Assembly: GCA_022823225.1 (NCBI GenBank)
Contig: JAJDXM010000024.1
Span: 124,001-188,000 of the forward strand
Direction of reading: 5' to 3'
Origin: Gemmatimonadota bacterium
GTDB taxonomy: Bacteria; Gemmatimonadota; Gemmatimonadetes; Longimicrobiales; Gaopeijiaceae
Length of the DNA: 64,000 nt
The position numbers and the translations under genes were made by a program. Positions 36,942 through 54,168 of this stretch are shown piece after piece. The notes below the pieces were generated by a model. It was given only the letters and a program-made list of their open reading frames with translations. It was not told the DNA's origin and searched no databases. Position 1 is the stretch's first letter. Each line of letters starts with the position of its first letter.

Positions 36942-38078
36942 GTGGCGAAGAGACTGACGGCAGCGTTCGTGCGGAGCGCCAAGCCAGGCCGCTACTACGA
37001 CGAGCATGGCCTGATGCTGCGGGTGCTGCCCACGGGCGCCAGGCAATGGGTCTGGCGGGGCACGGTCCGGGGCAAGCGTGTGGACCTGGGGCTTGGCGGG
37101 TTTCCCTACACCAGCTTGGCGGAAGCCAGGGAGACGGCCTTCGAGTACCGGAAGCTGGCCCGGGCCGGTGGTGACCCGCGGGCGGCGCCGGCGGCCGCGC
37201 CCACCTTCGAGGACGCGCTCGAGGAGGTCCTTGCGATCCAGCGGCCGTCGTGGCGGCCGGGCAGCCGGAGCGAGGCCCAATGGCGGGCGTCACTACGCAT
37301 GTACGCGCTTCCGAGGCTCGGCGAGATGCCGGTCGACCAGATCACCACGGCCGACGTGCTGGCCGTGCTGGTGCCGATCTGGAGCACGAAGCGCGAGACG
37401 GCGCGCCGTGTGCGGCAACGGATCGGGGCGGTGATGAAGTGGGCGGTCGCCAACGGCCACCGCGCGGACAATCCCGCCGGCGGCGCGATCGCCGCGGCAT
37501 TGCCGCAGGGCGGCGTGCGGCGGAAGCACTTCCGGGCGCTGCCCCACGCCGAGGTCGCGGCGGCCGTCGAAGCGGTGCGGAAGTCCAGCACCGGGATCTC
37601 AACCAGGCTGGCGCTCGAGTTCCTGGTCCTGACGGCGGTCCGGTCCGGAGAGGTGCGCGGCGCGCGGTGGGACGAGATCGATGTCGGGGCCGCCACATGG
37701 ACGGTTCCGGCCGAGCGCACCAAGTCCGGCCGGGAGCACCGTGTCCCGCTGTCTGGACGGGTGCTCGCCGTGCTACGGAGCGCAGAGGGGATCGGCGACG
37801 GGTCTGGTCTGGTATTCCCGTCGGCGACCGGCGGGGTGATCGCCTCGACCACCTTGGCGAAGGCCGTCCGCGACCTGGGCCTCGACTGCGTGCCGCACGG
37901 GTTCCGGACCAGCTTCCGCGTGTGGTGCGGCGACACGGGGGTCGATCGGGAGGTCGCGGAGGCTGCTCTGGCTCACGTCGTCCGGAACAAGGTGGAGGCG
38001 GCCTACGCGCGCGGGACGCTGTTCGAGCGCCGGCGCGAGGTCATGGAGGCGTGGGCCGTCTACGTCACGGGTGGATGA
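36942..38078 (+). CDS. P4-type tyrosine integrase
   Basis: 378 residues, GTG start with weak Shine-Dalgarno. N-terminal DUF4102-like arm-binding domain (KRLTAAFVRSAKPGRYYDEHGLMLRVLPTGARQWVWR), core-binding domain, and catalytic domain with Arg in AVRSGEVRGARW (about 233), HGFR box (about 319) and Tyr in AAYARG (about 354). Complete set of catalytic residues, so probably active. It integrates or excises the adjacent element. A decayed relative is at 33170. Confidence 0.92.
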   Translation: MAKRLTAAFVRSAKPGRYYDEHGLMLRVLPTGARQWVWRGTVRGKRVDLGLGGFPYTSLAEARETAFEYRKLARAGGDPRAAPAAAPTFEDALEEVLAIQRPSWRPGSRSEAQWRASLRMYALPRLGEMPVDQITTADVLAVLVPIWSTKRETARRVRQRIGAVMKWAVANGHRADNPAGGAIAAALPQGGVRRKHFRALPHAEVAAAVEAVRKSSTGISTRLALEFLVLTAVRSGEVRGARWDEIDVGAATWTVPAERTKSGREHRVPLSGRVLAVLRSAEGIGDGSGLVFPSATGGVIASTTLAKAVRDLGLDCVPHGFRTSFRVWCGDTGVDREVAEAALAHVVRNKVEAAYARGTLFERRREVMEAWAVYVTGG

Positions 38079-38459: not shown

Positions 38460-38960
38460 ATGGGACTCAAGCAGCAATCGCAGACCGAGCACCTAACTCT
38501 ACGCGAAGTGCCACGCTGCCTGGACCGCCACGCGGGCTTTGCCGAAGAACTGCGATCTCTCCCGCCGGACGAGGCCGTACGGCTGATCCGGCTCCAGATA
38601 ATCACGGATCGGATCTTCGATCGCGTGGTGCGGCGAGACGAGCGCGCGCGGTGGCGGGAGCAGTCGGCGCCACCGCCGGGGGGCGATCACTGCCGCCCGC
38701 TGATTTTCCTCGCAGTGCCCGGGCGGCTGGGAGCACGACGGGGCGGGGGCGACGACGACCTCGGAGCCAGCGGCGAGTCGCCATTCTGCCATTGCGTGCG
38801 TGCGGAGGCCATCGGTAAGCAACTGCCGGTGGCCTCTCTCTGTACGTGCCCGCGTGACCCGCTCGCGGCGGAAATCACACCGGGCATCGAGGCGCGGAGA
38901 CGCCCGGTGCGGCGGATGCAAGCGGAGTGGGCCGCGGAGAGGAGGGCATCATGGGACTGA
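38460..38960 (+). CDS. Hypothetical element protein preceding primase
   Basis: 166 residues from ATG 38460. Starts GLKQQSQTEHLTLREVPRCLDRHAGFAEELRSLPPDEAVRLIRL; C-terminal part has scattered Cys. Overlaps the primase-helicase start by 10 nt, so the two are coupled. May assist replication; no family recognised. Confidence 0.5.
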   Translation: MGLKQQSQTEHLTLREVPRCLDRHAGFAEELRSLPPDEAVRLIRLQIITDRIFDRVVRRDERARWREQSAPPPGGDHCRPLIFLAVPGRLGARRGGGDDDLGASGESPFCHCVRAEAIGKQLPVASLCTCPRDPLAAEITPGIEARRRPVRRMQAEWAAERRASWD

Positions 38961-41206
38961 CCACGACAGCCCAAGACTGGCTTGACGCCCTCCACGCGAG
39001 TGGATGGCAAGGCCGAAAGGCGGGCTCCAAGCGCTGGCGAGGGCCGTGCCCGGTCTGTGGCGGCGAGGCCAAGAGTCGCAGGTTCTGGGTCGAGCAGGGA
39101 GATGTCCAGGTGTTGGCAGGCTGCAATAAGGGCTGCGACTTCGAGGCGCTTGCCGAAGCGGTGGGAGCCGTCCCGAACGGCTCGGCACCTGCCCAGCCGA
39201 CGGCGGCCCAACGCGGTGCCGTAGCTGAGACGCAGCGTAGGAATCTGAAGCGCCTGCGGCAGCGATGGGAGGAAGCGATCCCCCTCAAGGACACCCTCCA
39301 CCCCTACCTCGAGGCCAAGGGATTTGACGGCCCGCCGCCCGGGCTACGGACGGACGGCGAGACACTGCTCGTGCCGATGCGCGATTCTGAGCGCCGGGTG
39401 ATGGGCCTCCAGCAGATATGGGGTACCCGCTCCAGGTATCGGAAGCAGTTTCAGAAGGGGAGCCAGCCGAGCGGCACCTACTTCGCCGTGGCGCCCCGAC
39501 AGGATTCCGCCCGAATCTACATCGCCGAGGGCCTCGCCACCGGCCATACCGTCGCGCTTGCGATGCCGGATGCGGCGGTCGTGATCGCTTTCACGGCCGG
39601 CAATCTGGCCTCCGTCGCCAGAACGCTACGGACCAAGTACCCGGACAAAGAGCTGGTCATTGCCGCAGACAACGACCGATGGAAAGACCCCGCCAAGAAC
39701 CCCGGCGTGACGGCGGCGAAGCTCGCCGTGCTAGAGGTGAAGGGCTGCCAGATAGCTATTCCGGACTTCGCGGACCTCAGCGACGTGCAGCCCGGCGAGA
39801 AAGGACCGACCGACTACGACGACCTGCGGATGCGCGAGGGGCTCGACGCCGTGCGGCGGTGGCTGGATCCGGCCATGGCCGATCAGGCCGTCACCGAGCA
39901 GCCGGCCGCAGACGAAGCGGAAGCGGAGCCCGCACCGGCAGAGTCTCCAAATGCCGGCGACGATCAGTCGCTGATCATCATCCCCCGCACATCCGCCGGC
40001 CTGGAAACGGCGTTGAATCACTTCGGGATCTCGCTCCGGTGGAACCTGCGGGGGCGCCGCATGGAGTTCCGCGAGGGTGACGGCGAGTGGGAACCCGAGA
40101 CGGACCGCTATATCGATCACCTGATAGACCGGGTGGCCGACCGCTTCAAGTTCAAGTCCAACAACCCGGAGTCGAGCGGGCTGCAAGCCGCCCGCTTCGG
40201 ACTGCAACGGTTCGGGCAAGCCGTCAACTCCCTCGCCTACACCCGTGAGACCGACACCTTCCTCGACTATCTGGCGGCCCTTCCGGAGTGGGACGGCATC
40301 AAACGGTTGGACTCCCTGCTCAGCGATCTGTTCCACATCCCGGGCGATCGCGAGCTGGCCGCATGGGCCAGCCGGTTCCCATACATGGGCGCCGTCACCC
40401 GGACGCTCCGCCCAGGAAGCCAGTTGGATGAAACGCCGGTCTTGATCGGCGGTCAGGGCATCGGCAAGTCCACCGCTTGCCGTCTCGGTCTCGAGGACCC
40501 CGCATGGTTCGGCGACTGCTTCGACTTCTACGCCACTGTGAAGGAGCAAGCCGAAGCGACCGCCGGATGCGTCATTGTGGAGATCTCCGAAATGGTCGGT
40601 TCGAAGCGTGCCGACATAGTCCGGATCCGTGCAGCCATGACGCGTTTGGACGACGGCCAGCACCGGGCCGCCTACGCTCGGGCCAAGGAACCCGCACCGC
40701 GCCGGTTCGTATTCGTCGGTACTGCGAACGACGATGAGACGCTTCCCAACGACCCGCACGGCAACCGCCGCTTCGTTGCCGTCAGGATCGAGCCCCGGCC
40801 GGATATGCCGGTCGCGGACATTCGCGAGTACCTGATCAAGTACCGGGACCAACTGTGGGCCGAGGCCCTCCACCGGATCAATGCCGGCGAGGAAGCCCGC
40901 TTGCCCGACCGACTGTTCGACAAGCAAGCCGAAGTGAACGAGGACCACCGACACAAAGATCCGTTGGTGGAGGACGCACTCGACATCTGGCTGGCAGAGT
41001 CATACACCGGCCCGTTCAAGCTCGCAGACCTGATCAGGGGCCTCAACCAGTCCAACGACGCGAGCGTGAGCATGAAGCATGACTCGCGCCGTCTCTCGGC
41101 AATGCTCACCAACCGGAAACTCCTCAAGTGCAAGCACTGCACCTGCACCGGGGAACAGCGGACCCGTCGGTGGGCCAAGCCTGCCGACTGTCGGAAACGA
41201 AGCTGA
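38951..41206 (+). CDS. Primase-helicase: zinc finger, Toprim and VapE-like ATPase
   Basis: 751 residues, ATG with GAGGAGGG upstream. CHC2-like zinc finger (C33, C36, C58, C62), Toprim domain with E193 in IAEGLATG and acidic AADND near 240, then a VapE-like superfamily 3-type helicase with Walker A GGQGIGKST near residue 500 and VEISEM as probable Walker B. Such proteins initiate replication of satellite phages, PICI-type islands and plasmids. The C-terminus KLLKCKHCTCTGEQRTRRW is a likely winged-helix tail. Strong sign that the element replicates itself. Confidence 0.87.
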   Translation: MGLTTTAQDWLDALHASGWQGRKAGSKRWRGPCPVCGGEAKSRRFWVEQGDVQVLAGCNKGCDFEALAEAVGAVPNGSAPAQPTAAQRGAVAETQRRNLKRLRQRWEEAIPLKDTLHPYLEAKGFDGPPPGLRTDGETLLVPMRDSERRVMGLQQIWGTRSRYRKQFQKGSQPSGTYFAVAPRQDSARIYIAEGLATGHTVALAMPDAAVVIAFTAGNLASVARTLRTKYPDKELVIAADNDRWKDPAKNPGVTAAKLAVLEVKGCQIAIPDFADLSDVQPGEKGPTDYDDLRMREGLDAVRRWLDPAMADQAVTEQPAADEAEAEPAPAESPNAGDDQSLIIIPRTSAGLETALNHFGISLRWNLRGRRMEFREGDGEWEPETDRYIDHLIDRVADRFKFKSNNPESSGLQAARFGLQRFGQAVNSLAYTRETDTFLDYLAALPEWDGIKRLDSLLSDLFHIPGDRELAAWASRFPYMGAVTRTLRPGSQLDETPVLIGGQGIGKSTACRLGLEDPAWFGDCFDFYATVKEQAEATAGCVIVEISEMVGSKRADIVRIRAAMTRLDDGQHRAAYARAKEPAPRRFVFVGTANDDETLPNDPHGNRRFVAVRIEPRPDMPVADIREYLIKYRDQLWAEALHRINAGEEARLPDRLFDKQAEVNEDHRHKDPLVEDALDIWLAESYTGPFKLADLIRGLNQSNDASVSMKHDSRRLSAMLTNRKLLKCKHCTCTGEQRTRRWAKPADCRKRS

Positions 41207-41209
41207 AAG

Positions 41210-41260
41210 AGTGGGCGGCAAGCGGGCGGCAAGCGGGCGGCAAGTGGGCGGGGTCGGTTT
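41210..41260. repeat. Tandem 11-bp repeat
   Basis: Four consecutive units close to GCGGGCGGCAA directly after the primase-helicase stop. Confidence 0.75.
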
Positions 41261-41663
41261 CGCGGTCACCCCCTACGGGGGTGCGGTGGAAGTGGGCGGG
41301 GTCGGGCGCCATCTCTTAAGGGGGAATGGCTGTTCACGTGAAGAAACGGGTACCCTTAAGGGGAGCCGCCCACCCCGCCCACCCCGCCCACCCCGTTCCA
41401 CTCGCTGCCCCTCCGGGGGCCGATTCAAGGCTTGGTCACGCACACGACGGGAGGCAGCCCGTGACTCTGAACACGACCCTGCCCCCATGGCGATTCGACA
41501 CACCGTGCAACCTGTGAGGCCACAGCACTCCATCCGGAGGCGACACGGGTGGGCCCACCGGGGGCACGGCGAAAAAAGGTTACGGTTCTCGTTTGCGCCC
41601 CGAATCGCGCCCAGACCCCCCCCTCCCCTCCCCGATTCGCACTATAAAGGCCCGTTTTTCACC

Positions 41664-41777
41664 GTCACAGACGTCACAGTGTCACAGGGGGAGGGGGATA
41701 AGGGCTTCGTGGAGGCGCGAAACTGGTGTGACGCTCGGGGGTCTCGAAAAGGGCCTGAACGTCACACACCGTCACAC
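41664..41777. repeat. Iteron-like GTCACA cluster
   Basis: GTCACAG at 41664, 41673 and 41681, GTCACAC at 41761 and 41771, and an inverted copy (GTGTGACG) near 41726. Regular short direct repeats close to a primase-helicase gene fit an initiator-binding origin. Confidence 0.5.
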
Positions 41778-41994
41778 GGCGGGGGTTTCGGCCCTATGTG
41801 TAGGGTTGGGCCGCCTCGCGCTCGTAGGCGCATGCGACGTGGGCGTGCGCGACGTGCGCGCGCGCGAGGTCTCCCCTTTGATTCGGGCCGGATCGGGCGG
41901 CTCGGGGCCGAGCCTGACCGTAACACGGTTCCGAGACGCCCGTCCGTGCCGCTCAGCGCCCTTCTGGCGGGCCGGGATCGTGGGTCTCGCCCCC

Positions 41995-42110
41995 ACCTCG
42001 CCCGCGTGTTGCCCATGCGTGGAGGGTCACCATGGGCCGTGGTCGTGCCCGAGCACCATGGTTCAGGGCGCTGGTGGTCCAGCCGACGTCCAGCCGGGGC
42101 CGTGGGCGGG
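41995..42110. repeat. Dispersed repeat, copy A
   Basis: Contains CCTCGCCCGCGTGT, GGAGGGTCA, GGGCCGTGGTCGTGCCCGAG and GGCGCTGGTGGTCCAGCCGA. Copies B and C follow. Confidence 0.75.
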
Positions 42111-42749
42111 GTGAAGGGGTGGGCATGATGAGAGTAGGTTGACATCGCTCGCTCACCGACCGCTATCGCTCCCGACCCCGACCTCGACGAGGGAGGGGGA
42201 GGGGAGCGGCGGGGTGCCGGGAAGGCGTTCCCGGACCCCCTTGCTCCCTGACGTGGCAAGAAGCCACCTCGGATCCGTCCGAAGAGCCCCCCTGCCCCGG
42301 CGACGCTTTGATGCCGGTAGCAACCGACGGCGACGGCCTCATGGCCCACCAAGGCTTACCACGACCGTGTGTTTGCGGGCCGCGCCACTCCGAATGGTGT
42401 GTTAGTCATAGTAGGGGGTTGGTGGCTTCGTGAAGGTGCGAACAGGAAGAGGCTGGGGATTGGAAACTAGACACCCGGGCGGTTTCGCCCCTTCGTGAAG
42501 GCGGGAGGCTACCCGCACGGCGGATCGAAGGGCGGCTGCGTCCACCGGAAGAGAGTGCCAATTGTCGGCCAGCCAGGCCATGCGCGGCGGCGATTGGCGA
42601 GAATATTACGGTCAGCGCCGAGGGCCTTTTTGGCCCCGAGACCCCCCCAGACCGCCCCCAAACACACTCATGTGGGGTAACTCCCTTCAACTTCTCTAGA
42701 CAGTCATGACAGGGTAAGGGGATGAGGGCTAAGAGTAGGGCCGAAAGGC

Positions 42750-42791
42750 GTCTAGGTAGAGGGTCATTTTCACCTAGACACCGGAAATGAC
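42750..42791. repeat. Interlocking palindromes
   Basis: GTCTAGGT (42750) pairs with ACCTAGAC (42772) and GTCATTT (42763) pairs with AAATGAC (42785), so the two inverted repeats interdigitate. Both cannot form as hairpins at once, suggesting a switch or protein-binding site. Confidence 0.55.
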
Positions 42792-42834
42792 ACCTAGTAC
42801 GGCGATGGGGTTTCACGGCTTCATGTAGGCTTGG

Positions 42835-42864
42835 CTCGCGCGCGCGGGGGCGCGCCTCTTACCG
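42835..42864. repeat. CG-run repeat, copy 1
   Basis: CTCGCGCGCGCG, GGGGCGCGCC and TTACCGG in series; second copy at 43634-43667. Confidence 0.65.
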
Positions 42865-43073
42865 GTAGGTATAGAGTACCGGAGACCCTCTAAACACCGG
42901 AAGGCGGCTCAGGTGGGCCGGATCGGGCCGGATCGGGCCGCAGGAGGGGGTGGATCGACCCGCTTCCCGGCGCACCGGACGGCTCGGGCGGCCCGAGCGA
43001 GCCCGAGGGTGGACGGAGACGCCCGCAGACGCCCGCCGGATGGTCGGTGGGCCGTCTGCCGCCCGTCTGCCGC

Positions 43074-43182
43074 ACCTCGCCCGCGTGTGCCGCTGTGTGG
43101 AGGGTCACGGTGGGCCGTGGTCGTGCCCGAGCCAACCCATGGTCAGGGCGCTGGTGGTCCAGCCGACGTCCAGCCGGGGCGT
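43074..43182. repeat. Dispersed repeat, copy B
   Basis: Closest match to copy A, including GGCGCTGGTGGTCCAGCCGA and GTCCAGCCGGGG. Confidence 0.75.
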
Positions 43183-43633
43183 GTGGGGTGGGGTGGGGGC
43201 AGATGGGGCGCACATCGAGGGTCTGGCGAGGCGCAGCGGGTGGCGGGGCGGCGGGTGGGCCGTCCTCCCTCCGCCAGCTCGGGACGCCCGGGCCGGAGGG
43301 GCGTTCGTTCGCCCTGGGTCGCCCGCTGGCCGCTTCACGACCGGAATACGCGCCGGTTCGTACCCCCTCACGGGGGGCGGGCGTCCGGGCCAATCCGGAC
43401 GCCCGAAACATTACGGTGCCCCCGGAAACGGCCCCTCCACCCCCCCTTCCCCCCTTCCAAAGCATCCCAATGGGGTATATCCCTCTCATTTACCGTTCCA
43501 TCGTCGCCAAGAGAGTACAAAACACCATGGGAAGGGCAGAACGATGGGAACGGTCGGCGCCGATTTGAGCGTACCCGTCGGATGTTGTTCCACCGTACCC
43601 GGATTTGCACACCTCCCCATCGGACGGGGGGCG

Positions 43634-43667
43634 TCTCGCGCGCGCGCAGGGGCGCGCCCCTTACCGG
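43634..43667. repeat. CG-run repeat, copy 2
   Basis: Same series as 42835-42864. Confidence 0.65.
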
Positions 43668-43793
43668 AGTGTATGAGGGTTACCGGAAGGGGCGGGCCGG
43701 ACGGAGGGCGAAACCGTCACCTCGTCCGGCGCATCGGGCCGTTTCGGGGCCGAGCCTGAGCCCGAGTGTGCCCGCATCCGGCTCGTCCTGCCC

Positions 43794-43880
43794 GCCTCGC
43801 CCGCGTGTGCCCATGCGTGGAGGGGTCTCAGGGGGCCGTGGTTGTGCCCGAGCCCTTGGCCCCCCCATGGCCGACCGGCC
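43794..43880. repeat. Dispersed repeat, copy C (partial)
   Basis: Shares the CGCCCGCGTGTGCCCATGCG and GGCCGTGGTTGTGCCCGAGC segments; abuts the stop of the recombinase gene. Confidence 0.6.
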
Positions 43881-43881
43881 C

Positions 43882-45173: not shown

Positions 45174-45425
45174 TCAGGTCGCCTTCGACCGGACATGCCC
45201 GTGGGGGCTGTTCACCAGGAACGCGCCGTACCGGCTGATGTAGTTGCACTTCGGGCACTCCATCACCGAGTCGTGATCCCACTCGTGGTCGCCCCTGCCC
45301 GGTTCCTCGCTCGGCACCGTGCCGTCGTCGGTCAGATCGAGCCAGACCGTCGCGGCGATGGTGAACTGCTCGTCGTTGCCGCAGCGCGGGCACTCCACGC
45401 CCTTCAACAGATTCTCGTTGGCCAT
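45174..45425 (-). CDS. Zinc-ribbon protein (array)
   Basis: 83 residues. CPRCGN near the start and CPKCNY later form a four-cysteine zinc ribbon separated by an acidic linker. Opens with a class I start-associated leader. Last gene of the array in transcription order. Function unknown. Confidence 0.65.
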   Translation of the reverse strand: MANENLLKGVECPRCGNDEQFTIAATVWLDLTDDGTVPSEEPGRGDHEWDHDSVMECPKCNYISRYGAFLVNSPHGHVRSKAT

Positions 45426-45432
45426 CTTCCTA

Positions 45433-45472
45433 CCTCCTGTTCGGAGTAAGCCGCCCCCGCCCGCATGGCGGG
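45433..45472 (-). promoter_or_regulatory. Leader: hairpin plus class I start motif
   Basis: CTCC-GAACA-GGAG start motif (45433-45448) preceded by a CCCGCC/GGCGGG hairpin. Confidence 0.6.
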
Positions 45473-45509
45473 AACGCAGGAAACCGAAGACGTGGCGAGC
45501 GTCCTCGGA

Positions 45510-45617
45510 TCAGAAGTAGAAGTGCCTCACGACGACGATGATCTTCGTGATGATGACCGCCGCGATGAACGCGACGACCAACCATTCGCCCAGGCCCATG
45601 CCTTTCTCACGGCTCAT
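45510..45617 (-). CDS. 35-residue membrane peptide (array)
   Basis: ATG 45617 with AAGGAGG upstream. Short N-terminus and one membrane helix (LGEWLVVAFIAAVIITKIIVVV), ending RHFYF. Lacks the class I hairpin motif. Possibly holin-like or regulatory; function not known. Confidence 0.5.
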   Translation of the reverse strand: MSREKGMGLGEWLVVAFIAAVIITKIIVVVRHFYF

Positions 45618-45693
45618 TACGCTGTCCTCCTTGTGGTTGCGGGAACGTGGATGGTCCCCATCGTGGGGACCGGAGAAGGGTTGAGCAAGCGGT

Positions 45694-45870
45694 TTAGTCG
45701 GCTGGCGCCTCCTCTCTGTCCTGACGGACGTCCGGGTCGGGGTGATGGATGCGGGTGGCCGCCGCAGCCTCGCGGCAACGGCGGCAGTCGCACGGCTGGC
45801 CGTGTCGGGCATGTCGGCAGTCGCACGACAGCCCGTAGGCGATCTTGGCTTCCTTGCGAGACATGGTCAT
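45694..45870 (-). CDS. Small Cys/His-rich protein (array)
   Basis: 58 residues. CDCRHARHGQPCDCRRC packs five Cys and two His, probably a metal knuckle. Start overlaps the upstream stop (ATGA). Function unknown. Confidence 0.55.
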   Translation of the reverse strand: MTMSRKEAKIAYGLSCDCRHARHGQPCDCRRCREAAAATRIHHPDPDVRQDREEAPAD

Positions 45871-46247
45871 ACCGCTTCCTGCCTCTCGGCAGCGGCCCGC
45901 ATCAATGCGTCGAGCGCCTTGTCGTGCAGGCGGGTCGTGTTGGCCGCGTGAACCGCCTTGAGGGCGCCAGACTCGACGATCTCGGACAGCGCGTCCCAAA
46001 GCGCGTTGAACGCGCCCGGTTCCTCCGACGGCGGCCACAGCGCGAGAAAGTCCTCGCCGCCCAACTCTTGGTCGATCAGCTTCTGAATCGTGTCGTTGGC
46101 CTTCTTGCACGAGAAGCTGATGGCGGCGATCTCGACCTTCTGGTAGCCTCCCGCCATTGCGGCCTGAACCGCAGCCGCCAGATTCTCACCGGCGCTGTAC
46201 AGATGCCTCGCGACCTCTACGTCGCCCTCTCTGCGTGTCAGTCCCAT
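45867..46247 (-). CDS. Hypothetical helical protein (array)
   Basis: 126 residues, mostly helical (ENLAAAVQAAMAGGYQKVEIAAISFSCKKANDTIQKLI). Class I leader upstream; heads a two-gene coupled unit. No family recognised. Confidence 0.6.
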   Translation of the reverse strand: MGLTRREGDVEVARHLYSAGENLAAAVQAAMAGGYQKVEIAAISFSCKKANDTIQKLIDQELGGEDFLALWPPSEEPGAFNALWDALSEIVESGALKAVHAANTTRLHDKALDALMRAAAERQEAV

Positions 46248-46253
46248 GTTCTG

Positions 46254-46300
46254 CCCTCCTGTTCTGGAGTGTCCCGCCTCCCACCATGGAAGACGGCAAG
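46254..46300 (-). promoter_or_regulatory. Leader: hairpin plus class I start motif
   Basis: CTCC-AGAACA-GGAG motif (46254-46271) after an imperfect CCGTCTTCC/GGGAGGCGG hairpin. Confidence 0.55.
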
Positions 46301-46415
46301 CCGCCCGCCCCCGGCGAAGGGGACAGGCGGTACGAGACTCAGGTTTCCTCGGTGTCCTACTCGACCATCTGGCGCTCCATCCGCAGCCCGACACGCGATG
46401 TTCGGATCGGGTGCC

Positions 46416-46664
46416 TCATGCGCCCTCCTCCTTTCGATGCCATGTCAGGATGGCGTAGCGGGCGCGGATGCCCGCCCGCATGTGCCACCGCCGGTCGATG
46501 AGGACCACGGCGTTCGCTGGCAGACGCTTCAGCCAACGTTCGACCTCCTTCCGGCTGACTTGGAACGCGCAGTCAGGATGGAAGGGGTAGAGGCTGCCGG
46601 ACATCTGGCCGAGTTTCCAGCGGTAGAAGCGGGTGGCGCGACTCTGTTCGACTGAGCGCCTCAT
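46416..46664 (-). CDS. Hypothetical protein (array)
   Basis: 82 residues, basic, Trp/Arg-rich (FYRWKLGQM, ERWLKRLPANAVVLIDRRWHM). ATGA overlap with the upstream gene; third member of a coupled trio. Might bind nucleic acid. Confidence 0.55.
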   Translation of the reverse strand: MRRSVEQSRATRFYRWKLGQMSGSLYPFHPDCAFQVSRKEVERWLKRLPANAVVLIDRRWHMRAGIRARYAILTWHRKEEGA

Positions 46665-46924
46665 GCCTGCCGCCTCTCCGGCAGAAGTCCGGCCCGTGCG
46701 GCGGACGCCTCCCAGATCGACAGCCGCCTCCCGTACCGGCGCAACTCCTTGTAGGCCGTGGTGCCCTTACACGTCTGGCACTTCACATCCCTGAGTTTCC
46801 GTGTCCCGAGCTGAGGCTTGTTGTCGGTCGAGAGCGAGTGCCCGCCCTCGTAGCTCACCAGCCCGCAGGCCGTTGTCTCGATGTGCCCGTCCCATGTCAG
46901 GGTCAGATGCTTCGGTTTGCTCAT
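46661..46924 (-). CDS. Zinc-finger protein (array)
   Basis: 87 residues. HIETTACG and VKCQTCKGTTAYKEL give a four-ligand Cys site resembling phage zinc-finger proteins. An 8-bp inverted repeat CCGTGCCT/AGGCACGG just before the start partly covers the Shine-Dalgarno element. ATGA-coupled on both sides. Confidence 0.58.
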   Translation of the reverse strand: MSKPKHLTLTWDGHIETTACGLVSYEGGHSLSTDNKPQLGTRKLRDVKCQTCKGTTAYKELRRYGRRLSIWEASAARAGLLPERRQA

Positions 46925-47124
46925 CCCGTGCCTCCTCTCATCAAGGCACGGCACACGTCCTTGGCGGGCATCTTCACATACTCGTGCAGCCCGCCGATGG
47001 ACAGAAAGAGGTGGGCCGTGCCCGGTGCGCTGTCCTTCACCTGCACGACATGGGCGGGGTTCACATGGATGAACCCGCCCCGTGTGCCGGGAAGGCGCAC
47101 CAGGGTCGCGTTTTCTCCAGCCAT
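46921..47124 (-). CDS. Hypothetical protein (array)
   Basis: 67 residues, beta-rich (GGFIHVNPAHVVQVKDS, AHLFLSIGGLHEYVKM). Class I leader; heads the trio ending at 46416. No family recognised. Confidence 0.55.
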   Translation of the reverse strand: MAGENATLVRLPGTRGGFIHVNPAHVVQVKDSAPGTAHLFLSIGGLHEYVKMPAKDVCRALMRGGTG

Positions 47125-47132
47125 GGTTCCTG

Positions 47133-47180
47133 CCTCCTGTTGCGGAGTGAGCGCCCCGCCCGCGTGACGGGGACAACAAG
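47133..47180 (-). promoter_or_regulatory. Leader: hairpin plus class I start motif
   Basis: CTCC-GCAACA-GGAG (47133-47149) after a CCCCG/CGGGG hairpin. Confidence 0.6.
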
Positions 47181-47228
47181 GGCGGGAGCACCCTGTGACG
47201 GTGCCCCCGCCGGTTGGAGGAACGGGGA

Positions 47229-47738
47229 TCAGTACGATCCGCAGGACTGGTAGCCCTCTTCGATCCAGCCGCCGCTCACTTCGGCCTCGGGCCACCGCTC
47301 GCGGAGCGCGTCAATGACGGGCTCCGGCGGTCCCCACGGCGTATCGAAGCGGAGCAGGATCGAGCGGTCGCCCTTCGATGCGTGGCTGTGGCTGGCGTCC
47401 CATTTGACGCCCCACTTGGCATCGCGCCAATCGTGGCCCGACGTGAAGCCGGTCGCTTCGATCTCGGCCAGCTCCTCGGGCGTCGCCGGTCGCTCTCGGA
47501 CCCGGCCCCCCGGCGCGGGCTCGGGGTCGAAGCTGACCATCACGACATCGCCGTTTGCGCGCCTCTGCGCGTTGTCGAGAATCGGCGGGGGCGGCACGAG
47601 CTTCTTGAACGTGACGCGGCGGTCGTCGACGTTCTCCTCGCCATCCTCCGGAAGATCGGTGAGCGTGTCGAATATCTCGTCGATCACGGCCTGATCCTCG
47701 TGGAAGATTTCGACGTTGTTTGTTACCCAGTTCGGCAT
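47229..47738 (-). CDS. YubB/Api92-like ferredoxin-fold protein (array)
   Basis: 169 residues. MPNWVTNNVEI at the start and DAKWGVKWDASHS near the middle match the YubB (DUF1281) family seen on plasmids and phages, where the opening MPNWC and WGTKW-type motifs are characteristic. Function unknown; typical mobile-element accessory gene. Own class I leader. Confidence 0.65.
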   Translation of the reverse strand: MPNWVTNNVEIFHEDQAVIDEIFDTLTDLPEDGEENVDDRRVTFKKLVPPPPILDNAQRRANGDVVMVSFDPEPAPGGRVRERPATPEELAEIEATGFTSGHDWRDAKWGVKWDASHSHASKGDRSILLRFDTPWGPPEPVIDALRERWPEAEVSGGWIEEGYQSCGSY

Positions 47739-47747
47739 GGGCTACAG

Positions 47748-47795
47748 CCTCCTGTATGGAGTGTGATCGGCCTCCGCGTGAGACCGGAGAGGCAC
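47748..47795 (-). promoter_or_regulatory. Leader: hairpin plus class I start motif
   Basis: CTCC-ATACA-GGAG (47748-47763) after a GCCTCTCCG/CGGAGGC hairpin. Confidence 0.6.
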
Positions 47796-47838
47796 CGAAA
47801 CGCCTTCGACGGCGTTCCGGTGGAGGAAGGGGGGGGCT

Positions 47839-48276
47839 TCACCTGAGCTTGTCGTAGTCGAGGTTCGAGCCAATGCTGGCGCCGAGCACTTCGACCACGG
47901 TGGCGTCGTCCACCTGTGACGGATTGGGGTCGCCGTCGTCGGGCACTTCGATCTCACCGTTCTCGGCGAGCAGGTTCGCGGCCCACTGCCGGGCGTTCTC
48001 GATATGCACGGCTTCGTCGTGTCGGTGGTTGCCGGAGAACACGATGATGCGGACGCGCTCATCGCTCTTCGGCGGCGGAATCGGCTTGACGCCCTTCGCC
48101 TCGTTCCACCAATCCACGCTCGTCCATGAGTCACCGTCCCAACCGATGACGCGGACGCTGTGGAGGCCAGCGGCCCTCCACGCCTTGGCGGCCTCGATCG
48201 CGTTCTCGCGGCTCGGGGTTTCGTGGCGCATGAGCTTGCCGTTCAGTCCGCCGGCGCTCACTTCGTACTCAAGCAT
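47839..48276 (-). CDS. Hypothetical protein (array)
   Basis: 145 residues: MLEYEVSAGGLNGKLMRHETPSRENAIEAAKAWRAAG, then RVRIIVFSGNHRHDEAVHIENARQWAANLL. Mixed alpha/beta. Own class I leader. No family recognised. Confidence 0.6.
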   Translation of the reverse strand: MLEYEVSAGGLNGKLMRHETPSRENAIEAAKAWRAAGLHSVRVIGWDGDSWTSVDWWNEAKGVKPIPPPKSDERVRIIVFSGNHRHDEAVHIENARQWAANLLAENGEIEVPDDGDPNPSQVDDATVVEVLGASIGSNLDYDKLR

Positions 48277-48282
48277 GTTCCT

Positions 48283-48328
48283 GCCTCCTGTTGGGGAGTG
48301 ACGTTTCCCGCCCGCCTGGCGGGGAAAC
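48283..48328 (-). promoter_or_regulatory. Leader: hairpin plus class I start motif (best example)
   Basis: ACTCCCCAACAGGAGGC (48283-48299) preceded by the hairpin GTTTCCCCGCC-AGGC-GGGCGGGAAAC (about 48302-48328). Confidence 0.7.
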
Positions 48329-48377
48329 AACGGGACCGGAGCGGCTTTGACCCGCCCCGATCCGGGGGGAGGACGCC

Positions 48378-48770
48378 TTATGCGGCGTCGGGGAGGCTGA
48401 CGATGCGCCGGGCGGTGTGGGCGGCGTCCGCGTACTCGCGGAGCGTGCCCTGTGCCTTCCAGAACTTGTCGCGCTCGATCGGCAGGCCGAACGGCTTGAA
48501 CCGGATCGACAGCAACTCGTTGAGCGATGCGTAGCCAAGCTCAGGGAAACCCAAGCCGGGGTCGCAGAGCCCGAACATCTCGATGTCGTCTCCGTAGACC
48601 CTCGCCTCGCTGAACAGCCAAGTGCCGGCGGATCCGCCGAACATCTTGACGACGGGCTTCGGGTCGTGGCCGTCCTTGTTCCGGCCCTTCGCGTTGTCGA
48701 GCAGCTTCTGCCATTCCTTCTTGGTAATGACGATCTGCCCGAGTCGGTTCCTGATCGGTGGCTGTACCAC
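48378..48770 (-). CDS. DUF2958-like protein (array)
   Basis: 130 residues from GTG 48770 with ACAGGAGG upstream. VVKMFGGSAGTWLFSEARVYGDDIEMFGLCDPGLGFPELGYASLNELLSIR followed by GLPIERD is the DUF2958 pattern, a family common on plasmids and conjugative or integrated elements. Function unknown. A GGAC/GTCC hairpin can show the Shine-Dalgarno element in its loop. Confidence 0.72.
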   Translation of the reverse strand: MVQPPIRNRLGQIVITKKEWQKLLDNAKGRNKDGHDPKPVVKMFGGSAGTWLFSEARVYGDDIEMFGLCDPGLGFPELGYASLNELLSIRFKPFGLPIERDKFWKAQGTLREYADAAHTARRIVSLPDAA

Positions 48771-48881
48771 GGTGGACCTCCTGTCCTGATGGGAAACGGA
48801 ACTACACGGAGGCGACGACAGGGGGGTCGAGTCCCTGCCGCCGTGGGTTGTGCGGTGTTGGTCAGAGTCCGCCAGGCGTCG

Positions 48882-49169
48882 TCACGCCGGGATGGGTGCG
48901 GCGTCGGTCGTCTTCTCGCGGACGTTGCCGGTCTTGCGGTTGACGGTGAGAGTCCGGTCGCACAGACGGCAGACCCACACCATGCAGCGCCGCGTCTCTT
49001 GCTCACGGTCGCGGACGTACTGGTGGAAGCCGTGGGAACCGATTGGACACGGAGGCTTCGCGAACTTCGTGCCTTTCAGCACACCACCCGTCTTCGGGTT
49101 CCAGCCGTCGAAACGGTCGCCCGTCTTGCCCTTGGCTTCCTTCTTCGCCTTCGGCTTGCGCTTCGCCAT
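48882..49169 (-). CDS. Basic zinc-finger protein (array)
   Basis: 95 residues. Lys-rich start (MAKRKPKAKKEAKGK), then CPIGSHGFHQ and CMVWVCRLCDR. Start overlaps the upstream stop by one base (TGATG). Possibly nucleic-acid binding; function unknown. Confidence 0.58.
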   Translation of the reverse strand: MAKRKPKAKKEAKGKTGDRFDGWNPKTGGVLKGTKFAKPPCPIGSHGFHQYVRDREQETRRCMVWVCRLCDRTLTVNRKTGNVREKTTDAAPIPA

Positions 49170-49618
49170 CAGTCGTCCTCCCGGCGCGATGCCAGCGGGT
49201 CGTCCACGATCTCGTCCGGCTCGCCATCGTCGCGCGGCAACGCCTTGAACGCGACCTTCACGATCCGGTAGGACTCGGCCTTGCCGCCGTGGTCCTCGCG
49301 CCACTCCCGAGCCCGCTTCAACCGCAGATGGTACGGGCTGACCGGCTCGCCGGCGTCGTCGATGACGATGAACAGGTCGCCGTAGTAGTCGCGGGAGAGC
49401 TGCGGCTCGCCGCGCTTGGGCGGGAGCGGCACGAACGTTGCCCATTCGCGTCCCTCGCACTGTTGGCAGAACGGCTTCTCGCACGCTTCCTCGAAGTCCA
49501 TCTGCTGCGTCTCGGTGTTCCAGGTGCCGTCGCCCTCGAAGGTCAGCTTGTCGCTGCCGCAATGGCTGCACACCCATTTGCCCGGCCCGTCGTCTGGACC
49601 ATACAACTCGTTGCTCAT
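49169..49618 (-). CDS. Zinc-ribbon protein (array)
   Basis: 149 residues. CSHCGSDKLTFEGDGTWN and CQQCEGREW form a zinc ribbon; a helical acidic tail follows. Class II leader in which TTCCTC and GAGGAA pair around the start site. First gene of a coupled pair. Confidence 0.6.
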   Translation of the reverse strand: MSNELYGPDDGPGKWVCSHCGSDKLTFEGDGTWNTETQQMDFEEACEKPFCQQCEGREWATFVPLPPKRGEPQLSRDYYGDLFIVIDDAGEPVSPYHLRLKRAREWREDHGGKAESYRIVKVAFKALPRDDGEPDEIVDDPLASRREDD

Positions 49619-49621
49619 GGA

Positions 49622-49641
49622 TTCCTCCCCCTTTTGAGGAA
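49622..49641 (-). promoter_or_regulatory. Class II start hairpin
   Basis: TTCCTC-AAAAGGGG-GAGGAA: the Shine-Dalgarno GGGGGAGG lies in loop and stem. Confidence 0.55.
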
Positions 49642-49714
49642 ATGGGACGGGGAACGGCCGATCCGTTCCCCCACAGGCGGCCGGGAGGCGTTGAGACCTC
49701 CCGGCCGATCTTCC

Positions 49715-50398
49715 CTACGCAGGGCGCAGTCCCATCACCAGCAAGTCGAGCGACCGTCCCGCAGCCTCGGCGCTCGCGTCGAGCACCGGAGCCCAAGTTG
49801 CCCGCCTCTCCTTCGGCGTCAGGTTCCGTTGCCGCAGCGTCACGGCCAGGCGGTTGTTCCCGTGGTTCTGGAAGATGCTGCCCACACGCCCCATCTCTTC
49901 GAGATAGGTGGCGTTCAGCCCGATTGCCGTCTTGGCGACCGCGTAGTGCCGATAGCGCCTGAGCACATCGTCCACGTTCGGATAGCGCCGGAAGCATCCG
50001 CCAGTGCTGGCCGGGTCGCAGCCTACCGCCTGATGGCCCGCCGCGCTGTCGAGCACATGTACGCTGCCGTCCTCGAAGCATTGGACCGTGACCGACGTGT
50101 CGAGCACCTTCTTTGCTCGCTTCCGGCTGAACAGGTCCGACGGAATCACCGCGTCGCGCTTGAAGCGGTCGGTCGGCCACTCGCCCTCCCATGTGCCGCC
50201 GATCATGCTGACCAACTTGTGGCTGTTGGACGCGATGGTGCGCAGGTTGCCGCGCTCCTTTGCGGCGGGATCCTCCGGCCGGAAGCAGATGCTGTTGAGC
50301 AACGGCCGGGCCGGGTCCATGCTCACGGCAAGCAACGCCACAAGAATGTGACGCCTGAACACGGTGAGTCGCAGTACCTCCTTCGTCGATTTCGCCAT
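49715..50398 (-). CDS. Sliding-clamp (DnaN)-like protein (array)
   Basis: 227 residues. Segments such as NSICFRPEDP, LRTIASNSHKLVSMI, VIPSDLFSRKRAKKVLDTSVTVQCFEDGSVHVLD and AKTAIGLNATYLEEMGRV resemble repeated domains of beta-clamp proteins encoded by phages. Shorter than cellular DnaN (about 370), so probably two domains. If right, it may act with the primase-helicase in element replication. Assignment is by pattern only. Confidence 0.5.
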   Translation of the reverse strand: MAKSTKEVLRLTVFRRHILVALLAVSMDPARPLLNSICFRPEDPAAKERGNLRTIASNSHKLVSMIGGTWEGEWPTDRFKRDAVIPSDLFSRKRAKKVLDTSVTVQCFEDGSVHVLDSAAGHQAVGCDPASTGGCFRRYPNVDDVLRRYRHYAVAKTAIGLNATYLEEMGRVGSIFQNHGNNRLAVTLRQRNLTPKERRATWAPVLDASAEAAGRSLDLLVMGLRPA

Positions 50399-50422
50399 AG
50401 GTTTCCCCCTGTTGGCGTTCCA

Positions 50423-50441
50423 GAGACCGGCTCTCGGTCTC
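50423..50441 (-). promoter_or_regulatory. Leader hairpin (class II)
   Basis: GAGACCG-AGAGC-CGGTCTC perfect 7-bp hairpin ahead of the AACAGGGGG start element. Confidence 0.55.
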
Positions 50442-50481
50442 CCATGGGCGGGAAGGGGTGCGATCCCCCTCCCGCCGTCGC

Positions 50482-50808
50482 TCAGCGTCGCCAGTGCTCC
50501 CGGTCGCGCGTCGGTGGCCCGGTCGTGACGTAGCGTCCGTGGATGCCCTTCTCGTGCTTGCTCGGCATCTCGCGGATGCGCCGGTCAAGGCAGGTCATGC
50601 ACACGCGGTTGCTGTCCTTCGGCTCGAACACCCAAGCCGCGAGCGACAGGATGCTCGCCAACCTCGCGTTGTCGTTCCCGATGGCCCATGCCCGTGGTGC
50701 GCCCTTCGGCCCTTTGAGAAGGCGCTGCCAGTCGATCATCAGCTTTCGCACGAGGAACACGATCAGCGTCCGTGTGATCCAGTCCCGAATCCTCTTGAGT
50801 GTCCTCAT
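50482..50808 (-). CDS. Hypothetical membrane-associated protein (array)
   Basis: 108 residues. N-terminal amphipathic/hydrophobic stretch (WITRTLIVFLVRKLMIDW), later CMTC and a basic tail. ATGA overlap with the upstream gene. No family recognised. Confidence 0.5.
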   Translation of the reverse strand: MRTLKRIRDWITRTLIVFLVRKLMIDWQRLLKGPKGAPRAWAIGNDNARLASILSLAAWVFEPKDSNRVCMTCLDRRIREMPSKHEKGIHGRYVTTGPPTRDREHWRR

Positions 50809-51146
50809 GATGCCCTCGCCTTCCTGCTCGCGGCGTCCTGAATGGAGCGCAGCACCGGGCGGACATGCACCGGCACGTCGGCGGGCTTCCTGTCCACGAT
50901 CTCCCGTGCCGCGTCCCGGCAGAAGTCCCGAATCAGCCGGTGCAGCGTCGTGCGGAGCGGGCTGTGGGTGAACCCCAACACGAACAACAGGGGTCCGATC
51001 TGGTCCAACTCGTCCTCGATGTCCGGAAGGTGCGCGGTCAGGTTCGTTGCGACCTGACGGCGAAACTCGTCGCCGTCGAACATCTTGTGTGTGAGGATGT
51101 GGGCGAGCATTGCGCGCTCGACCACCTTCGCCGCCTTGTCTGCCAT
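50805..51146 (-). CDS. Hypothetical helical protein (array)
   Basis: 113 residues, helical (KVVERAMLAHILTHKMFDGDEFRRQVATNL). Class II leader. Coupled to the downstream gene. Function unknown. Confidence 0.55.
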   Translation of the reverse strand: MADKAAKVVERAMLAHILTHKMFDGDEFRRQVATNLTAHLPDIEDELDQIGPLLFVLGFTHSPLRTTLHRLIRDFCRDAAREIVDRKPADVPVHVRPVLRSIQDAASRKARAS

Positions 51147-51172
51147 GGTCTCTCCCCCTTTGGGCAGTGTCC

Positions 51173-51193
51173 GGGGACCGTCTTTCGGTCCCC
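51173..51193 (-). promoter_or_regulatory. Leader hairpin (class II)
   Basis: Perfect 8-bp hairpin GGGGACCG-AAAGA-CGGTCCCC before GGGGGAGAGACC-ATG. Confidence 0.6.
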
Positions 51194-51240
51194 CATGGGA
51201 CCGGGGGCCTGTGACGGCCACCCGATCCGGTTGGGGGGGA

Positions 51241-51768
51241 CTACAGCGCGTCCCAAGCGCGAACGAGCGCGTCGAGGTCGCGGCGGATGTACCGGCGCGT
51301 TCGTGCTTCGGCGTCGGTCAGCGTCTCGGCGGACTCTCGCGCCGTCCAGAGGTCGCGGTCGTGCTGATCGAGAAACGCGGGCGGGACCGACCGGAGGACT
51401 TCGCGGTCCTGGTGCGCCAGCATTGCCCGCATCCGCCCGATCTGGCGGGCGAGTCCCCGCTTGGTCGCGTCGGTGCAGGGCGGTATCAGGTTCGTGGTCT
51501 GCGCCGCCTTGACCGGACTCACCTGCCGCATGGTGTCGCGGACGGCGAGCACGGCTTCCGGCCCTTCGCCCCGGTCGGTGGCGGCGGCCAGCTCGCGGAA
51601 CATGACGGCCAAGTCCTCCATGATGTCCACCGCCGCCTCACCGGCCTTGCTGTGAACGCGCTCGGCCACCTCGTTGCCCCTCGCGTCGATCTCGCGCTCC
51701 AGTGTCTTGAACGCGCCGCGAAGATACGCGGTGACGTTGCGGCCCTTCCCTTCGGTGCCTTCCTGCAT
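51241..51768 (-). CDS. Hypothetical helical protein (array)
   Basis: 175 residues from ATG 51768. Helical (FKTLEREIDARGNEVAERVHSKAGEAAVDIMEDLAVMF). Leader is a variant: CTGCC-AAAC-GGGAGGC with a CGGCC/GGCCG hairpin above. No family recognised. Confidence 0.55.
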   Translation of the reverse strand: MQEGTEGKGRNVTAYLRGAFKTLEREIDARGNEVAERVHSKAGEAAVDIMEDLAVMFRELAAATDRGEGPEAVLAVRDTMRQVSPVKAAQTTNLIPPCTDATKRGLARQIGRMRAMLAHQDREVLRSVPPAFLDQHDRDLWTARESAETLTDAEARTRRYIRRDLDALVRAWDAL

Positions 51769-51873
51769 GGGCTCTGCCTCCCGTTTGGCAGTGACTCCGG
51801 CCTCCAACCATGGGGCCGAACAGTCTCCCCGCCCGGTGTGATCCGAACGGGAAGGGGGGGAGAGTCGGGACGG

Positions 51874-52563
51874 CTATACCCCGGCCTCGGGGTCGTTGTG
51901 GTGGTCGTAGACCAAGAAACTCGTGGTCCGCTGGACATGGGCGACGACACTGCGCCCGGTGCGCTTGCCCTCGGCTATCGCCTCGGCCCGGTCCTCGCGG
52001 TCGTTCAGGTCCGTGTCACCTTCCAACTCGTAGATGACGCGGGCGTCGGCGTCGCGCTCGGCAAGTTCGAGAATGTCCGCCAACGCGGGCGCACCGTCGG
52101 GGCTCCGCTTGCGGTCATATGCCGCCTCGGCGGTGTCGAACGGTCCCGCCCACTGGCTGTGCTCCGGCTGGAAGTAGTACCAGCCTGCCGGGTTCGGGTA
52201 GGCGTCTCGGGATCGGGCATGGTAGCCGCCGATGTGGTCGATCCCGCCCCGTGGGAAGTAATGGACGCCAACGCCCATCATCTGGGCGACCGGCCTCGGG
52301 TCGATCCGCACCTCGTCGAGAAGCGTCAGCAACTCCAGACACGTCGCAACGTGATCCTTCGCGTCCTCGGCGTGCAGGTCGTTGTCACGCGGGGGCCGCG
52401 TGGTGATGGTCCCGAGAAAGTCGCCGCCAGCACCACCGCCGGGGTCGTTGGCGTACAGTTCGAGATACGCCGCCTGAGCGTTGTACGTCGCCATGATGGT
52501 GAAGGGGCCGTGCTTCTGGACATCCGCAACGGTGACCGTGCGGTCCTGTGGCTTGTCAGCCAT
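51874..52563 (-). CDS. Hypothetical protein (array)
   Basis: 229 residues, one of the larger array proteins. Starts ADKPQDRTVTVADVQKHGPFTIMATYNAQAAYLELYAND; middle YFRPGGIDHIGGYHARS-like, acidic second half. Class I leader. No family recognised. Confidence 0.58.
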   Translation of the reverse strand: MADKPQDRTVTVADVQKHGPFTIMATYNAQAAYLELYANDPGGGAGGDFLGTITTRPPRDNDLHAEDAKDHVATCLELLTLLDEVRIDPRPVAQMMGVGVHYFPRGGIDHIGGYHARSRDAYPNPAGWYYFQPEHSQWAGPFDTAEAAYDRKRSPDGAPALADILELAERDADARVIYELEGDTDLNDREDRAEAIAEGKRTGRSVVAHVQRTTSFLVYDHHNDPEAGV

Positions 52564-52570
52564 TTCCTCG

Positions 52571-52610
52571 CCTCCTGATGGGGAGTGACAGCCTCGCCAC
52601 CCCGGCGAGA
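52571..52610 (-). promoter_or_regulatory. Leader: hairpin plus class I start motif
   Basis: CTCC-CCATCA-GGAG (52571-52587) after CTCGCC-GGGG-TGGCGAG hairpin. Confidence 0.6.
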
Positions 52611-52654
52611 CGCATGGGACGGGGACGGTTCGATCCGTGCCCCGCCCGTCAGGG

Positions 52655-53224
52655 TCAGAGTGATTCGATCTCCACCCACTTGCGCGACGGCCCGCCATCG
52701 CCGAGCGGGAAGGCGTACTGCTGGCCTTCGACCTTGGCGATGCGGCCCACCGCCCGCAGCGCGTCGCGGTCCTTCGCCGCTTCATGCCACTCGGCGTGAC
52801 GGCCGAGCGTCCGCAAGAGACGGCCACCCTCGGAAAACACGGCCACCCGGTAGCTCGTGTAGTGATAGCCCCGGTCGCTCTCGGTGTAGCCGCCGATGAC
52901 ACCGCCCGCCTCCACCCGCTCCAGCGCCACCATGCCGTCCTCCGCACCGGCGTCGTACCAGTCGGACGGGTCGATGTCGTTGAAGTACTCGCGACGAAGC
53001 GCGGTCACGAATCCGAGCCAGTACTCGCGGAGGTTCTCGGGACCGTCCGGCTCAATGGCCATCTGCCGGACGCCCATGGCCGTGTCCCGGCCCGCCAGAT
53101 AGTCGTGCGGCAGGTCGCTGTCGTTCATGTCCCTCGCGCGCGAGTCGTGCATCCCGCTCAGCGCGTCGCGCACCCCGTCGCGGTAGGTGAGCGTGTCGGC
53201 CACCCCCTTCTTGCCTGTGTCCAT
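52655..53224 (-). CDS. Hypothetical protein (array)
   Basis: 189 residues from ATG 53224. DTGKKGVADTLTYRDGVRDALSGMHDSRARDMNDSDLPHDYLAGRD at the start; Trp/Tyr-rich middle (REYWLGFVTALRREYFNDIDPSDWYDAG). Variant class I leader (CTGCC-GAATACA-GGAGGC, hairpin GCCCGGTCCC/GGGGATCGGGC). Unknown. Confidence 0.58.
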   Translation of the reverse strand: MDTGKKGVADTLTYRDGVRDALSGMHDSRARDMNDSDLPHDYLAGRDTAMGVRQMAIEPDGPENLREYWLGFVTALRREYFNDIDPSDWYDAGAEDGMVALERVEAGGVIGGYTESDRGYHYTSYRVAVFSEGGRLLRTLGRHAEWHEAAKDRDALRAVGRIAKVEGQQYAFPLGDGGPSRKWVEIESL

Positions 53225-53330
53225 CGGCTGCCTCCTGTATTCGGCAGTGCTGCCCGATCCCCGAGCGGGACCGGGCCAAGCACCCGCCACAGTGCGAACC
53301 GTGACAGGTGTGGGGGAGAAGGGGTGACGG

Positions 53331-54159: not shown

Positions 54160-54168
54160 AGGCCCTTA

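Follow-up and report, generated by a model that had tools for sequence, protein, structure and literature searches.

Four repeat modules between a primase-helicase gene and a Cre-like recombinase gene in a Gemmatimonadota element: a candidate replication origin and putative recombination sites

Results and Discussion

The 2.7-kb intergenic region at positions 41207-43881 of the window (the whole 64,000-nucleotide stretch analysed here, a piece of a 301-kb contig from a 4.2-Mb draft genome) is a row of four repeat modules, W0 to W3, and not one origin. W0, directly behind a primase-helicase gene, has the features of a replication origin. W1 to W3 may be sites for a recombinase of the kind encoded by the adjoining gene int2, a relative of Cre. 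Together they would control both replication and recombination of an integrative, plasmid- or satellite-like element from Gemmatimonadota of sponges, a composite reading to which we assign a probability of about 0.48. The host and its relatives bearing int2 can be read as sponge-symbiont Gemmatimonadota. If the composite reading is true, these elements carry a natural family of Cre-type enzymes with complex sites, fast-changing in sequence and fixed in geometry. Such a natural series for how Cre-type enzymes switch their target would be directly useful for designer recombinases. It would also give a first handle on the replication and resolution of mobile elements in sponge Gemmatimonadota, of which our literature search found no description.

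The element and its genes

Along the element int1 stands at the start, followed by the primase-helicase gene, the 2.7-kb region and int2 (Table 1). Its boundaries are presumed to lie at about 36738 and 58442, as suggested by similarity to contig G012:C39 (locus L050) from the same genus; int1 and a flank with a BCCT transporter are common to the window and G012. The replication protein of the element is presumably the primase-helicase. A second contig of the same genome, G012:C9, is 93.6% identical to positions 43882-58102 (14.3 kb), and compared with it the window element seems to be cut off at 58102. The block beyond int2 comprises about 25 small genes on the minus strand, one of them a DUF1281_C gene, and blocks related to it contain SSB, DUF2958 and RusA-like genes. 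Going by its predicted genes, it resembles the accessory block of a plasmid or ICE. Left of int1 there is a 153-bp direct repeat (36483-36635 and 30028-30180, 89.5% identical), and a short second primase-like gene (L034, G000:C87:199379-200113) is located about 11 kb past the right edge of the window.

Table 1. Features of the element and of the 2.7-kb region (positions in the window)
Feature	Position	Strand	Evidence and remarks
int1, full-length phage-type integrase of the host element	36942..38078	+	Pfam PF22022, PF13356, PF00589
Primase-helicase (Toprim_3 and VapE-like domain)	38927..41206	+	Pfam PF05272 (5e-46), PF13362 (6e-7); PHROG 2249 DNA primase (5e-69)
W0, origin-like module	41211..41391	+	score reached by 0/60 dinucleotide shuffles in each of two tests
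W1, six-box module, boxes CGTCACAN (GTCACA)	41574..41846	+	layout test 0/1000 shuffles; box at +76 absent
CG-rich run closing W1	41834..41868	.	sequence, tandem repeats
Tail repeat, copy 1	41991..42113	+	repeat comparison
Two-hairpin sequence, 80 bp	42170..42249	.	88% identical to a copy in G005 (L013 3528-3607)
Probable truncated remnant of a W1-type module	42413..42506	+	repeat families D2 and D11; weak profile match; read by eye
W2, CTAGACAC-type boxes	42600..42870	+	relative L012C in G021; strict layout test not significant (932/1000)
CG run of W2	42836..42860	.	followed by TTACCGG...GTACCGGAGACCCTC...ACACCGG
Tail repeat, copy 2	43070..43195	+	repeat comparison
W3, boxes ACCGTTCC, adjoins int2	43406..43672	+	strict layout test not significant (151/1000)
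CG run of W3	43637..43660	.	sequence, repeats
Tail repeat, copy 3, shortened	43790..43854	+	27 bp separate its end from the int2 stop codon
int2, Cre-like tyrosine recombinase, 342 aa	43882..44910	-	Pfam PF00589 (8e-13)
Small-gene block of the int2 element	45174..58102	-	gene calls; comparison with G012:C9

Repeat content of the region

The initial annotation described the region as non-coding and dense in repeats; the repeats are confirmed, and the region appears to be non-coding. No gene was found between 41206 and 43882 by a codon-usage gene caller (a home-made script), the five ORFs inside or overlapping the region match no Pfam family, and Rfam gave no match anywhere in the window. Of the 48 rows that Tandem Repeats Finder reports for the window, 12 fall in these 4% of the bases. 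The 11-bp tandem repeats reported after the primase stop codon are present at 41213-41251, and GTCACA occurs, as stated, exactly five times in forward (41664, 41673, 41681, 41761, 41771) and once in inverted orientation (41727). These six are among only 17 occurrences in the window, a number below chance, and they fall within 113 bp. The two CG-run modules noted earlier correspond to the runs of W2 and W3; a third CG-rich run closes W1. A dispersed repeat of about 100 bp, here called the tail repeat, does have three copies, but the third measures only about 64 bp. What had been overlooked is that the repeats group into modules and that an inverted CCGCCCACC array (41366-41395) pairs with the 11-bp repeats.

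Alignments of parts of the region, both among themselves and to four loci of the same genus (BLAST and profile searches), revealed the recurring unit. It consists of a GTTACGG lead, a C-rich tract, an AT-rich palindrome (e.g. GGGTATATCCC), short repeats, a CG run and ACCGG repeats. The 80-bp two-hairpin sequence is perhaps a small mobile or REP-like sequence; its copies in the window and in L013 have unrelated flanks and DNA fold z-scores of -2.5 and -3.0.

W0, the origin-like module

W0 begins 5 bp past the stop codon of the primase-helicase gene. Direct GTGGGCGG-type repeats (41211, 41222, 41233, 41244, 41292) are followed by a gap of 60 bp (41306-41365) and by inverted CCGCCCAC copies (41366, 41375, 41384). 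The gap contains 45% AT compared to 32% in the window, or 34% under the pairing used in the test of the W0 plan. Seven related loci keep the same plan with other repeat sequences. When 'direct pair, gap, inverted pair' was scored against 60 shuffles per locus, 0 to 2 shuffles reached the score at all eight loci (W0, L041, L039, L067, L076b, L106, L012, L014B). The plan was found in none of five control stretches by other primases (33 to 60 of 60 shuffles), among which the L037 stretch lies upstream and not downstream of its primase and the L014 primase is located on a contig with int2. The W0-type gaps have an AT content of 50-60% at six of the eight loci and of 42% in L014B. In the window, L041, L039 and L012, iterons flanking an AT-rich segment adjoin the primase-helicase gene.

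Such a form would be expected of an iteron origin that has a melting segment, and on sequence grounds W0 is the best origin candidate of the 2.7-kb region. The initial annotation, which had proposed an origin with multiple initiator sites for the region as a whole, was therefore partly right: about 190 bp (W0) are origin-like, but most of the 2.7 kb, namely W1 to W3 with the GTCACA repeats, tracks int2. Cumulative GC skew across the element, suggested earlier as a check, reaches its maximum at 45084 and has no minimum inside the region. It gives no sign of an origin here, but this test is confounded because the gene orientation is convergent.

Layout of the six-box modules

In the clearest modules six boxes of 8 bp are located at 0, +8/9, +52 to 55 (inverted), +75/76, +87/88 and +96 to 98. 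The box words change from unit to unit: GTCACA in W1, CTAGACA in W2, ACCGTTCC in W3, GTGCC words in L041 and L039, GTGTAACG and GTGTACTG in L077 and GTGTCGG in L076. For six of nine modules the box words agree more closely with the module they come from than with each of the eight others. A GTCACAC box is common to W1 and L067, whose int2 proteins are about 70% identical.

For a strict test of the layout, L041 and L039 alone supplied the spacing windows, and 1000 dinucleotide shuffles were used. Five of the 13 other modules (W1, L067, L077a, L077b, L076a) gave 0/1000 and L014B gave 13/1000, and seven, including W2 and W3, were not significant; the test is not blind, because the layout had been recognised after viewing all 15 modules. 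With wider spacing windows nine of the 15 modules, W2 and W3 among these, were at 0/200 shuffles and the remaining six at 6 to 199. A simple single-motif test was not significant for most of the 15 modules, one of which gave 0/100 shuffles. In addition, we scanned 36 fetched sources (loci, not whole genomes; 1.10 million strand positions) for the layout irrespective of motif. Six sites scored at least 31, five of them non-coding and beside int2 (L041, L067, L076 and two in L077) and one coding (L045); W1 and L039, with a score of 30 each, were missed. W3, which adjoins int2, is less regular than the distant W1. The AT content just before box 0 averages 45% compared to 36% for whole modules, and no other 50-mers of the region are as AT-rich as the stretches directly upstream of the W2 and W3 boxes.

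Together, boxes 2 and 3 make a dyad about 30-34 bp long. The best dyad with 13-bp arms is located 67.5 to 71.5 bp from box 0 in six of the 15 modules, including W2 and W3, and the arms of these co-positioned dyads match at 9-10 of 13 bases. Taken singly, the dyads are mostly not above chance (at most 20/1000 shuffles in two of 15 modules, one of them off position). A putative lox-sized dyad is kept in W2 (gcgtctaggtaga-GGGTCATT-ttcacctagacac, 42748-42781) and in W3 (43544-43578), where the AT-rich GGGTATATCCC palindrome is found at 43473; W1 lacks one arm.

Relationship of the modules to int2 and to the primase

A profile of seven int2 homologs compared with the PDB matched 17 sequences, all of them Cre or Cre-derived (best E 5e-18). 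Foldseek with the AlphaFold model of int2, which is mediocre (pLDDT 71), returned Cre or Cre variants at ranks 1-33 with TM-scores of only about 0.4, and VchIntI (2a3v) at ranks 39 and 41. Identity between int2 and Cre is about 20%, so that int2 is kin to phage P1 Cre and not Cre itself. The putative catalytic set R192/R193, K220, H287, R290, W313 and Y322 is invariant in all seven int2 sequences.

Close homologs of int2 (57-90% identity) are encoded in eight other genomes of the genus. Modules are supported by model or layout in eight of the nine int2 loci with at least 57% identity, the window counted. The exception is G005, where the layout score is not significant and repeated CTACGCTAC words beside int2 were seen by eye only. 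The sequence model R1, built from the modules of five genomes, matches six of the 23 genomes of the genus, five of them by construction because they supplied its training modules; the one genome outside the training set is G017 (E 2e-12, beside int2). Across 154 genomes of the order R1 has matches in seven, the seventh being G023. That match (E 1e-3) lies in a coding sequence, which can be read as a ksgA-like methyltransferase, and was rejected as a false positive.

A primase is found beside the modules in four of the nine int2 loci (window, G020, G008, G021). The modules of L067, L076 and L077 adjoin int2 with no primase adjacent, and the stretches by primases away from int2 contained neither kind of module. 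The window, L041, L039 and L067 all have the order W0-type module, W1-type module, int2; in L106 the same order was read partly by eye. In G017 the genes for a Prim-Pol and a D5-type helicase are situated at the opposite end of the element; a circle, itself inferred, would therefore restore the order helicase-primase, W0-type, W1-type, int2. Identity between the G020 and G008 elements is 96% in the small genes, 89% in the part containing primase and origin and 82% in the int2 part, and the module core can hardly be aligned.

Unlike the close homologs, 11 distant int2 relatives of the genus or family (L092-L102) reached best layout scores of 26-29. Near six outside relatives on plasmids, about 33% identical to int2, the score never exceeded 29. 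The int2 query gave no match in viral contigs, nor did the primase query in a search of genome contigs. In G021 (L012 2686-8477) int2 with a module tail is separated by a primase segment from an inverted array of three modules, as if this segment had been inserted or flipped inside the array. Module A of L014 comes after a broken int2 copy, and its upstream flank is common to W3.

Proposed function and alternative explanations

According to the composite reading, an initiator, most likely the primase-helicase itself, would bind the direct and inverted iterons of W0 and open the AT-richer gap. W1 to W3, with a lox-sized dyad flanked on both sides by extra boxes of the same sequence, would be sites for an enzyme of the int2 kind. 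They might serve to resolve multimers of a circular form or to recombine elements with each other. We infer that proteins and boxes pair in this manner and that some modules may be active at present. Within a module, the box sequences would drift together and fast, and old modules would accumulate in tandem; therefore only one module per array, or none, would need to match the resident enzyme. Several points speak against the composite reading. The distance of 8-9 bp between boxes 0 and 1 is too short for two Cre monomers bound to 13-bp arms, and three different box sequences are found beside a single int2. W2 and W3 are irregular, W1 lacks one dyad arm, and W1 and L067 have one box in common despite int2 proteins of only about 70% identity. 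Furthermore, the AT-rich stretches upstream of box 0 would suit an origin equally well, and W0 and W1 have words in common in L106. The seven modules not significant in the strict layout test, the mostly chance-level single dyads, the GC skew and the searches for att sites, an empty site and a circular junction, which yielded none of these, also count against it.

Alternatively, it might be that all four modules are initiator sites, with W0 as the core origin and W1 to W3 as further cis regions for replication or copy control. Phage P4, too, has a second region, crr, besides ori1. The neighbourhood of int2 would then be incidental, as resolution sites and origins often adjoin. The iteron-like box spacing and the AT-rich stretch immediately before box 0 favour such sites, and some words are shared between the module kinds: GTAACG is common to the W0 and W1 boxes of G018 (L106), and the W0 word of L012, GTGTAACG, is the box of L077a. 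The primase-helicase beside the modules in four of nine int2 loci and, in the G017 element, the Prim-Pol/D5-helicase pair at the opposite end point in the same direction. We nevertheless regard this explanation as somewhat unlikely. In the window, L041, L039 and L067 the W0 and W1 boxes differ, the modules of L067, L076 and L077 adjoin int2 and not a primase, and no modules were detected by primases away from int2. One primase would have to serve three box sequences, and with three box sequences in three modules a single initiator for all of them fits poorly. A single origin for the whole region was dropped because the modules follow int2 and the boxes differ.

If only W0 were in use, W1 to W3 could be relics left where related elements inserted one after another at a single hot spot. 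This would account for the tandem arrangement with repeated tails, for the truncated module between W1 and W2, for module A of L014 behind its broken int2 copy with the flank known from W3, and for the apparent truncation of the window element compared with G012:C9. However, layout and box agreement are intact in W1 (0/1000) and in the int2-adjacent modules of G020, G008, G017, G013 and G003, and we consider an array made up of relics improbable. Even less probable is a more far-reaching reading, which sees in the tandem modules a record of elements in competition. In each module the docking sequence of another recombinase or initiator would be preserved, by which an element could recombine with, capture or titrate co-resident rivals, and the array of past specificities would be built by the Cre-like enzyme itself. 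It is hardly credible that the region encodes a structured non-coding RNA or conceals a protein gene. The inverted boxes are able to pair, and in RNAalifold 10 of 13 predicted pairs were kept with changes on both sides; but the consensus fold has an energy of only -5 kcal/mol and a covariation term of -0.28 (10 sequences), the boxes are repeated in direct orientation as well, and Rfam gave no match. The RNA structure was dropped because of this weak signal, and for a protein gene the coding signal is absent.

Comparison with known systems

The composite reading has its closest parallels among the Cre/loxP, Dre/rox, Nigri/nox and Panto/pox systems. Like these, int2 is Cre-like, and several modules contain a candidate inverted repeat of about 30-34 bp in the intergenic region near its gene. 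In the account of PMC7438526 loxP consists of two 13-bp arms and an 8-bp spacer, and searches for Cre-type systems, as outlined in PMC4957104, look for a 34-bp lox-like intergenic site near the recombinase gene. In contrast, the arms found here match over 8-10 bp instead of 13, four extra boxes surround the dyad, and several modules with different boxes are arranged in tandem. The TnpI irs of Tn4430 and Tn5401 is described in PMC7157771 as an inverted core, IR1-IR2, with direct accessory repeats, DR1 and DR2, beside the recombinase gene. An inverted pair together with direct boxes of one motif is present in five of the seven most regular modules, the exceptions being W1, without box 3, and L067, without box 2. 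However, the irs has four subsites and serves a transposon, whereas the modules here have six boxes with other spacing. No transposase was detected among the element genes scanned.

W0 on the other hand is similar to the origins of the satellites SaPI and P4, in which iterons and an AT-richer gap are located near a primase-helicase gene, and it may be compared with the minimal replicon of pRN1. For W1 to W3 we know of no counterpart in the SaPI, P4 or pRN1 systems. The plasmid pRN1 encodes a large replication protein and, as given in PMC4234260, needs 166 bp downstream of its replication operon; the initiators of PLE, P4 and SaPI are treated in PMC7145576. In contrast to the satellites, neither a helper phage nor a packaging gene nor induction is known for the present element. 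PHROG scans of a sample of genes revealed no genes for packaging interference or capsids. The arrangement of repeated units in tandem opposite a tyrosine recombinase is also reminiscent of integron attI and its cassette array, and attI has accessory recombinase sites, too. The units found here, however, carry no genes and no attC-like site, and int2 is nearer to Cre than to IntI. The integron reading was rejected for the Cre-like recombinase and the gene-free units.

Ends of the int2 elements

For five int2 elements both ends, and for the window both of its candidate left ends, were searched for att sites or direct repeats, and only matches of chance size (11-12 bases) appeared; no att site or direct repeat was found at the ends of the G017 element. 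In G002, considered as an empty site for the G017 element, the flanking genes are close together, yet other genes lie between them. The empty site is not proven because of these intervening genes and because the flanking genes belong to gene families. A search for circular contigs revealed no terminal overlap in any of the four contigs tested. G020:C210 (24.8 kb) and G008:C102 (24.6 kb) span nearly the same element end to end and are perhaps complete extrachromosomal copies, although they lack a terminal overlap. At the far end of the int2 elements, before the first small gene, a palindrome of the form CTGATAACTTCAGTTATCAG is conserved (L104 at about 10896, L070 at about 1505, L069 at about 10388), and several contigs start or stop near a palindrome of this type.
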